Shown in pieces: positions 42,716 through 44,643 of a stretch of 64,000 nt of DNA. The position numbers were made by a program, and so were the translations under genes. Origin of the DNA: Microbacterium sp. (GTDB lineage: Bacteria > Actinomycetota > Actinomycetes > Actinomycetales > Microbacteriaceae); assembly GCA_013823625.1 (NCBI GenBank), contig PNMM01000002.1, positions 310,001 to 374,000 on the forward strand, written 5' to 3'. Numbering within the stretch: the stretch's first letter is position 1; each line of letters begins with the position of its first letter. The notes under the pieces are model-generated. The model was not told the DNA's origin, searched no databases, and saw nothing but the letters and a program-made list of their open reading frames with translations.

Positions 42716-42737
42716 GGGCCGCCCTTCGGGGCGGCCC
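42716..42737 (+). terminator. UUCG-tetraloop terminator after the BI-1 gene
   Basis: GGGCCGCCC-TTCG-GGGCGGCCC, a 9-bp perfect stem with a stable UUCG loop, followed by TCTCTCTG. It lies about 43 nt after the stop. Confidence 0.85.
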
Positions 42738-42930
42738 TCTCTGCGTACCCGGGCGCTTTTCCCTACGGCCGCCGGCCAAGCGGCACACGGGGTTTTCTTG
42801 AGTGAAGCCGCATTGACGTCAAACGGATTTCACACGAGAAAAACAGCCTCAGGCTATGGGCCGCTGCCGGCATGTGCTGTGCGAGGCACATTGGGTCAGC
42901 GGCAGATCGCACTCTGCGAGCTCACGTGAC

Positions 42931-43075
42931 CCGGGCGGCGAGACGCCGCCCGGAATGACCGCGCGCGAAAGCCAGAAATGGCTTTCGCTTAACGCGCGCC
43001 CGAGCGCCGAGACGGCGCTCGGAGTGACCGCGCGCGAAGGCCAGAAATGGCCTTCGCTCAAAGCGCGGTCACTCC
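42931..43075. repeat. Tandem 69-nt repeat of paired hairpins, with covarying stems, abutting guaA
   Basis: Two units begin at 42931 and 43000. Each has hairpin 1 (9-bp stem, loop GAGAC: 42931-42953 and 43000-43022) and hairpin 2 (10-bp stem, GAAA tetraloop: 42965-42988 and 43034-43057). The units differ at three stem positions per strand and every change is compensated. Unit 2 also has a 13-bp outer stem (GGAGTGACCGCGC at 43021-43033 with GCGCGGTCACTCC at 43063-43075) whose right arm includes the guaA stop codon. The gap 42738-42930 holds no gene. It may act as a two-way terminator or be a mobile palindromic repeat. Confidence 0.8.
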
Positions 43076-44643
43076 CATTCGATTGTGCCCGGGGGCTTCG
43101 ACGTGACGTCGAGAACGACCCGGTTGACTCCCGCGACCTCATTCGTGATGCGGTTCGAGATGCGGGCGAGAACGTCGTAGGGCAAGCGGGTCCAGTCGGC
43201 CGTCATCGCGTCTTCTGACGACACGGGGCGCAACACGATCGGGTGGCCGTAGGTGCGTCCATCGCCCTGCACGCCCACTGAGCGCACGTCGGCGAGCAAG
43301 ACCACGGGGCACTGCCAAATTTCGGCGTCGAGGCCCGCGGCGGTCAACTCGGCGCGCACAATCGCGTCGGCCTCGCGCAGCAGCTCAAGCCGCTCAAACG
43401 TCACCTCGCCGATGATGCGGATGCCCAACCCGGGCCCCGGGAACGGCTGGCGCGCCACGATCGGCTCGGGCAGACCGAGCTCGCGGCCAATCGCGCGCAC
43501 CTCGTCTTTGAACAACGTGCGCAGCGGCTCGACGAGCGCGAACTGCAGGTCGTCAGGAAGCCCGCCCACGTTGTGGTGGCTCTTGATCGTGGCCGTGCCC
43601 GAGCCACCGCCCGACTCGACAATGTCGGGGTAGAGGGTGCCCTGCACGAGAAACTCGATGGCCCCGCCCGCATCCTGAGCCTCGGCAACAAGGTCGGCTG
43701 CGGCCTGCTCGAAGGTGCGGATGAACTCGCGGCCGATGATCTTGCGCTTCGACTCGGGGTCGGTGACACCCGCAAGGGCCGTCATGAACTGCTCGCGAGC
43801 ATCCACCGTCACCAAACGAATGCCCGTGGCCGCGACGTAGTCTTCTTCGACCTGGCGACGCTCGTCGGCCCGCAACAGGCCGTGATCGACGAAGACGCAC
43901 ACGAGCTGGTCACCGACCGCCTCGTGCACGAGCGCGGCCGCGACAGCGGAGTCGACGCCGCCTGAGAGTCCGCAAATGACGCGGGCCGAGCCCACCTGCG
44001 CGCGAATGCGCTCAACCTGCTCGGCGATGACGTTGCCGCTGTTCCAGTCGGCGGGGATGCCCGCGGCGGTGTGCAAGAAGTTCTCGAGCACGCGCTGGCC
44101 AAACTCAGAGTGCTTGACCTCGGGGTGCCACTGCACGCCATACATCTTCTGCTCGTCGCTCGCGAAGGCCGCGACAGGAGTGTCAGCGGTCGAGGCGAGC
44201 ACCGTGAAGCCTTCGGGCGCGCGAGCGACCGAGTCGCCGTGGCTCATCCACGTCGTCTGGCTCTCGGGCTGGCCGGCGAGCAGCGCGCCGCCGTCACCGT
44301 GCACCGTCATGGTCGTAGCGCCGTACTCGCGACGACCCGTGTGCGCGACCTCGCCGCCGAGCTGCTGCGCCATGACCTGAAAGCCGTAGCAAATGCCCAT
44401 GACGGGAACGCCCAGCTGAAGGATGCCCGGGTCGAGTGCGGGAGACCCCGGCTCGTACACGCTCGAGGGCCCGCCGCTCAGCACAATGCCCGCGGGGCTC
44501 TTCTCGGCAACCTCGGCGGCCGTGATGGTGTGCGGAACGATCTCGCTGTAGACGCCGGCCTCGCGCACGCGGCGCGCAATGAGCTGTGCGTACTGCGCGC
44601 CGAAGTCGACGACGAGCACGGGGCGGTGAGCGGTGTCGCTCAT
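43069..44643 (-). CDS. guaA: GMP synthase (glutamine-hydrolysing)
   Basis: 524 residues, XMP to GMP. Glutamine amidotransferase domain: [11 protein letters not shown] with catalytic Cys, and [13 protein letters not shown] with His/Glu. ATP-pyrophosphatase domain: [15 protein letters not shown], then the C-terminal dimer domain [16 protein letters not shown] and ending PPGTIEWE. The ATG overlaps the DUF3817 stop by 4 nt, so it is the third gene of a SURF1-DUF3817-guaA operon. The stop codon lies in the right arm of a long inverted repeat. Confidence 0.97.

Follow-up and report, generated by a model that had tools for sequence, protein, structure and literature searches.

What is the pair of hairpin-forming units that adjoins the 3′ end of guaA in a Microbacterium genome, and does it belong to guaA? 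In the window, the 64,000-nt stretch of DNA analysed here, the host gene guaA (GMP synthase, an ORF named from its translation and from the preliminary description) occupies 43069–44643 on the minus strand. Two tandem units with a spacing of 69 nt and an identity of 87% adjoin its 3′ end at 42930–42998 and 42999–43067. Unit 1 is distal from guaA. Read on the plus strand, it contains hairpin A (42931–42953; CCGGGCGGC-GAGAC-GCCGCCCGG; 9-bp stem), then the inter-hairpin arm AATGACCGCGC (42954–42964), a near-copy of the arm at the guaA end, and then hairpin B (42965–42988; GCGAAAGCCA-GAAA-TGGCTTTCGC; 10-bp stem). Within the following 75 bases, this arm finds no perfect complement of at least 6 bases. 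Unit 2 repeats the layout with hairpin A (43000–43022; CCGAGCGCC-GAGAC-GGCGCTCGG; 9 bp) and hairpin B (43034–43057; GCGAAGGCCA-GAAA-TGGCCTTCGC; 10 bp). Its outer stem pairs 43021–43033 with 43063–43075 over 13 bp without a mismatch. The left arm, GGAGTGACCGCGC, has its first two bases in common with hairpin A. The right arm, read on the minus strand, is the end of guaA (the last base of the Trp codon, the Glu codon and the stop TGA, at 43069–43071) together with the six bases beyond.

From unit 1 to unit 2, hairpin A changes at pair 4 (G-C to A-T) and pair 8 (G-C to C-G), and hairpin B changes at pair 6 (A-T to G-C). Pairing is preserved in all three changes. The two 69-nt units with their GAGAC and GAAA hairpins, the three compensated changes and the perfect 13-bp stem holding the guaA stop had all been described before, and all are present in the sequence. 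The folding z-scores of the site are −12.5 (DNA, plus strand) and −10.9 (RNA, minus strand), and none of 200 shuffles was equally stable either way, which places the fold far outside chance. An imperfect 29-nt palindrome is found between the BI-1 gene and guaA, within 42793–42842, and a palindrome resembling it by eye adjoins the guaA element of one other genome (L035 of G007). Elsewhere in the window, a ZMP/ZTP riboswitch (Rfam RF01750, 60.4 bits) is located at 2827–2910 on the minus strand.

No Rfam family matches the units, in line with the preliminary description, whose author knew of no named family of this layout; the best score is 28.7 bits against a gathering threshold of 112. A covariance model trained on 25 units, both guaA units among them, scores these two at 84.5 and 76 bits, and the best non-overlapping match in the window at 17.4 bits. 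In a first search of 60 genomes, including that of the window, similar DNA was seen in 24. Every one of the 26 genomes in the window's genus has matches to the model (102 in total, 1–8 per genome). In Microbacteriaceae as a whole, matches are seen in at least 78 of 398 genomes, representing 28 of 85 genera, and in a class-wide sample in at least 2 of 394 genomes; both counts are lower bounds because no more than 13 candidates from each genome were scored and the filters were stricter. The two class-wide genomes are both Microbacteriaceae, one being the window's own, and at least 19 other Microbacteriaceae in that sample are without a match. The covariance-model search suggested in the preliminary description thus returned further copies throughout the genus and in at least 78 of the 398 family genomes, so that the refuting condition named there, an absence of copies in related genomes, does not hold.

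Deeper scoring of ten copy-rich genomes gives 9–58 copies in each. Among 80 of the at least 120 matches from a pattern scan, the hosts are Microcella, Agrococcus, Pseudolysinimonas, Herbiconiux, Salinibacterium, Homoserinibacter, Protaetiibacter, Ruicaihuangia and further actinobacterial assemblies. The record of one pattern match (L212) bears the label Parvibaculum and may be a contig placed in the wrong bin. Tandem copies are recurrent, with spacings of 68, 69, 81, 86, 119 and 121. At L050 (G013:C3:441069-441338), hairpin A recurs in an array with a period of about 69 and a degenerate second half, next to one complete copy. A lone RNA structure specific to guaA is ruled out by the dispersal of the family across genomes. 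The earlier tie between the structure and guaA gives way to a repeat that is scattered over many gene ends and also present within protein genes. The family consists of small two-hairpin DNA repeats of Microbacteriaceae, which are present at gene ends and in frame within conserved enzymes.

The element is about 69–81 nt long. In the orientation antisense to its usual host gene, it is composed of hairpin A, an arm, hairpin B, a few free bases and the outer right arm. Hairpin A has 9 bp and the loop GRGAC (GAGAC or GGGAC). Hairpin B has 10 bp and the loop GAAA. The arm between them is 9–14 nt, most commonly CGCTGGCGTCGCG. Six or more perfect outer pairs within 32 nt are formed by 189 of the 239 distinct units, and the common arm CGCTGG finds the partner CCAGCG downstream in 136 of 174 units. 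The loop after the GRGAC hairpin is GAAA in 222 of 235 cases and the loop before the GAAA hairpin is GRGAC in 222 of 228, in a set where most loci were found with loop-aware tools; the pattern scan made no use of the GAAA loop.

In 25 units, 98.5% of the stem cells are paired and 17 of the 19 pairs show double changes, a level reached by none of 500 shuffles, and the covariation is lost when the partner is slid; like every pair count given here, these come from related sequences and not from independent events. No mismatch over the 19 pairs is seen in 150 of the 239 units, a set biased to intact stems because units had to satisfy stem criteria (a minimum of 13 Watson-Crick pairs out of 19 in the set used for wobbles and location). 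The stretch covered by the element is open in at least four of the six frames in 203 of the 239 units. In genome G325, copies at L115 and L116 reside within another dispersed palindrome (TTTCGATAACG...CTACTCAACC), and the motif CTACTC/CTATTC-RACC is seen 3′ of 6 of the 239 units.

Based on genes within 150 nt that read toward the element, 69 units are read from the opposite strand only, 31 from the same strand only, 29 from both strands and 46 from none, while 64 are inside predicted ORFs. About half of the units (69 + 31 + 29, or 129 of 239) are thus at gene 3′ ends. The gene caller follows a simple rule of G+C by codon position, so both the in-ORF and the orientation counts contain errors. 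The genome of the window has six matches: two at guaA, two at der, one at eno and one in the rpsG-fusA interval (names given by eye from translations). Copies are also seen directly upstream of tRNA genes, namely tRNA-Gly (L046, L076), tRNA-Ala (L095) and tRNA-Ile and tRNA-Ala at L103, where two neighbouring tRNA genes have one copy apiece.

In 16 of 25 species, the end of guaA (last Trp base, Glu and stop) forms no fewer than 12 of the 13 outer pairs with the bases beyond, the partner being placed at its best pairing. In two of the 25 the site is remodelled by a copy of the common type, and seven are without the outer stem. In 13 distinct versions of this stem, 97.6% of the cells are Watson-Crick pairs, including swaps between the stops TAG and TGA. 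The number of double-change cells is 38, against a shuffle mean of 9.5 and a maximum of 16 (none of 1000 shuffles reaches it). Double changes fall at nine positions, which 9 of 1000 shuffles equal. In der, a perfect arm of 10–11 bases is within the coding end at 8 of the 10 loci whose gene end was called, and in eno the perfect outer arm is within the coding end at 2 of 5 loci. The outer stem at rpsG, of up to 11 bp, stops short of the gene end. In guaA, der and eno, the coding end of the gene is part of the outer stem.

Other copies are inserted in frame in conserved genes. A net insertion of 66 nt (22 codons) is present in 4 of the 22 purH orthologues read; 13 are plainly empty and 5 have a divergent linker. 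Three of the four filled proteins have 553 aa and the empty ones 531 aa; the fourth (G020) was excluded from the length comparison and the alignment. Based on a PDB sequence match, the insert is placed between the stretches that match solved PurH (18–210 and 256–553), which corresponds to a linker. The predicted structure has a mean pLDDT of 58.6 (21 sequences) with residues 208–273 below 50, and this low-confidence model serves for those residues only.

In aspS, 5 of 20 loci read have the insert, one of them decayed, and five further loci are outside this count. In genome G005, one aspS is filled and another is empty, which may reflect a mixed assembly. Among seven proteins tested against NCBIfam, the profiles span the insert in those of purH, menB, fpg, the error-prone polymerase gene and HrpA. 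The best match of AspS begins after the insert, and the insert of TsaD is an N-terminal extension preceding the match. Copies occupy one and the same site of the error-prone DNA polymerase gene in two genera (L100 and L150). No clean target duplication is seen at purH or aspS, where the linkers have also diverged.

The perfect stems may be kept by selection on RNA or by copying of DNA. If one RNA strand is selected, G·U pairs are expected to outnumber A·C pairs on that strand. Among the 164 units with a single direction of reading, the wobbles are 23 RNA-compatible (16 + 7) and 23 incompatible (13 + 10). In the other 75 units, 12 G·T and 8 A·C are counted in the orientation of the element. The non-Watson-Crick cells in the outer stem of guaA are three T·G and one G·G on the gene strand, and no A·C; the three, U·G on the mRNA, lean weakly toward RNA, being few. 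Compared by eye, hairpin A of aspS differs almost wholly between species and is still paired, and in the decayed aspS copy of G003 it remains paired despite the lost loop.

According to the accessible text of PMC8794818, perfect stems can arise and be repaired through template switching during replication. Since it can make compensated changes in one step (same text), these changes alone do not amount to strong evidence for selection. The folded form proposed in the preliminary description is upheld as a conserved feature, and the reading of its compensated changes as strong evidence of selection is not. DNA-level upkeep is favoured over RNA selection as the better fit, because the wobbles have no preference for an RNA strand and template switching makes and repairs such stems. 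The likeness to the template-switch-maintained hairpins of PMC8794818 is in the perfect stems and compensated changes. In the text accessible to us, those hairpins concern RNA genes, whereas the hairpins of Microbacteriaceae are parts of a dispersed repeat. Template switching by itself does not account for the nearly fixed loops.

It could still be argued that the element is a cis-acting RNA at mRNA 3′ ends, which stabilises or marks housekeeping mRNAs such as those of guaA, der and eno and whose pairs are selected as RNA. The excess of opposite-strand over same-strand units among those with a single reading neighbour (69 against 31), the outer pairs kept in 16 of 25 guaA species despite TAG/TGA changes, and the three U·G wobbles of the guaA mRNA would all fit. 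We nevertheless regard it as improbable: the 164 one-direction units have no G·U preference on the transcribed strand (23 against 23), 64 of the 239 units are inside predicted ORFs, several of them in conserved enzymes, and the strand with the GAAA and GRGAC loops is the one less often transcribed. Moreover, the 7 of 25 species without the element at guaA include some with a plain terminator-like hairpin in its place. A terminator, or a bidirectional terminator cassette, might be suspected from stable GC hairpins that adjoin stop codons, often between convergent genes, but is very hard to reconcile with the flanks. Five or more T in the 8 bases after hairpin B are present in only 9 of 239 units, and five or more A in the 8 bases before hairpin A in only one. 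A further GC hairpin is also seen past the element in G022 and G025, and in the window at about 42716–42746.

REP, BIME and REPIN sequences, which are associated with RAYT transposases, are dispersed palindromes near gene 3′ ends, with tandem copies. The repeats of Microbacteriaceae resemble them in dispersal, in tandem copies and in their frequency at gene ends. It is nevertheless highly improbable that they are a REP/REPIN family moved by RAYT. The Y1/RAYT transposase domain (PF01797) is absent from all 30 copy-bearing genomes tested, and the one genome of 40 that has it is without copies. This tells against Y1-type enzymes, while an enzyme of another class may still be involved. Many copies (64 of 239 in predicted ORFs) are within genes and not extragenic, and two different hairpins have conserved loops.

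Movement itself is suggested by filled and empty sites across species and by almost identical copies in several locations within a single genome, G325. Their flanks are alike as well, so the copied unit may be larger there. No transposase was recognised near clustered copies at 11 loci with two or more copies, judged by eye and from first residues only. At L426, one of these loci, a XerD-like recombinase gene, probably the host's own, adjoins a copy. A composite transposon was rejected, as genes between copies 1.0–5.9 kb apart at 11 loci are ordinary by eye (secA, nhaA, pyrG). No parent transposon with the same ends was recognised by eye in the 11 multi-copy loci, and no plasmid or phage vehicle matched the one 101-base copy searched. 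Single-stranded transposition on the lagging strand predicts a replication bias and was rejected with counts of 62 and 58 (120 copies, 14 genomes). For this count, the terminus was assumed opposite dnaA, rounded lengths were used for G345, G400 and G166, the matches listed were counted with one copy per tandem place, and three copies of G034 were left out as likely overlapping contig ends.

Taken together, the guaA units are probably a tandem pair of a small non-autonomous mobile palindromic repeat, the functional counterpart of the Rickettsia palindromic elements (RPE), with stems kept mainly by template switching. Counting against this reading are the negative results for a mover, for a clean target duplication and for a replication bias, together with the weak RNA lean at guaA and the nearly fixed loops. 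The repeat is probably a passenger, mobilised in trans by a putative enzyme that recognises the loops of its hairpins in single-stranded DNA. Copies would survive where they do little harm, just past a stop codon or in an in-frame protein linker. The stems, including the outer stem on the host gene end at guaA, der and eno, are probably kept perfect mainly by template-switch copying from arm to arm, and not by RNA selection. More tentatively, a still active and so far unknown hairpin-reading mobility system may be at work, in which the outer stem is re-templated on the end of the host gene and enzymes gain peptides of 20-odd residues. If this doubtful extension were true, the last codons and the stop of the host gene would be copied into an inverted repeat at the landing site, and the element would be a free-living, culturable counterpart of RPE.

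As far as the accessible text of PMC2229807 and PMC10969869 describes them, RPE are stem-loop repeats of 105–146 bp that occur between genes, within RNA genes and, in frame, within conserved genes. The repeats of Microbacteriaceae are like them in being dispersed between genes and in frame in unrelated conserved genes. Compared by these descriptions and not by sequence, they are shorter (about 69–81 against 105–146 bp) and belong to another phylum. They also differ from RPE in having two hairpins, nearly fixed loops and an outer stem on the host gene end. MITEs such as ERIC, Correia, RUP and YPAL, as covered in the accessible part of PMC2229807, are likewise small, without genes of their own, stably folded and in some cases fused to coding sequences, but neither a target duplication (purH, aspS) nor a parent transposon (11 loci) was seen for the repeats of Microbacteriaceae. 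Among the titles and abstract openings found in the open-access literature, none describes such elements in Microbacteriaceae or Actinobacteria, which does not by itself prove their absence there.

The stems of this family are a naturally occurring example of fully compensated changes that do not have to reflect RNA selection. Protein-coding palindromes are mainly known from Rickettsia, which is hard to grow and manipulate, and similar ones have been reported from Wolbachia and Methanocaldococcus jannaschii. To our knowledge, the mode of movement of RPE has not been established. With culturable environmental actinobacteria of the same habit, both the movement and the effect of an inserted peptide on conserved enzymes become testable, because these hosts show filled and empty sites in sister species.
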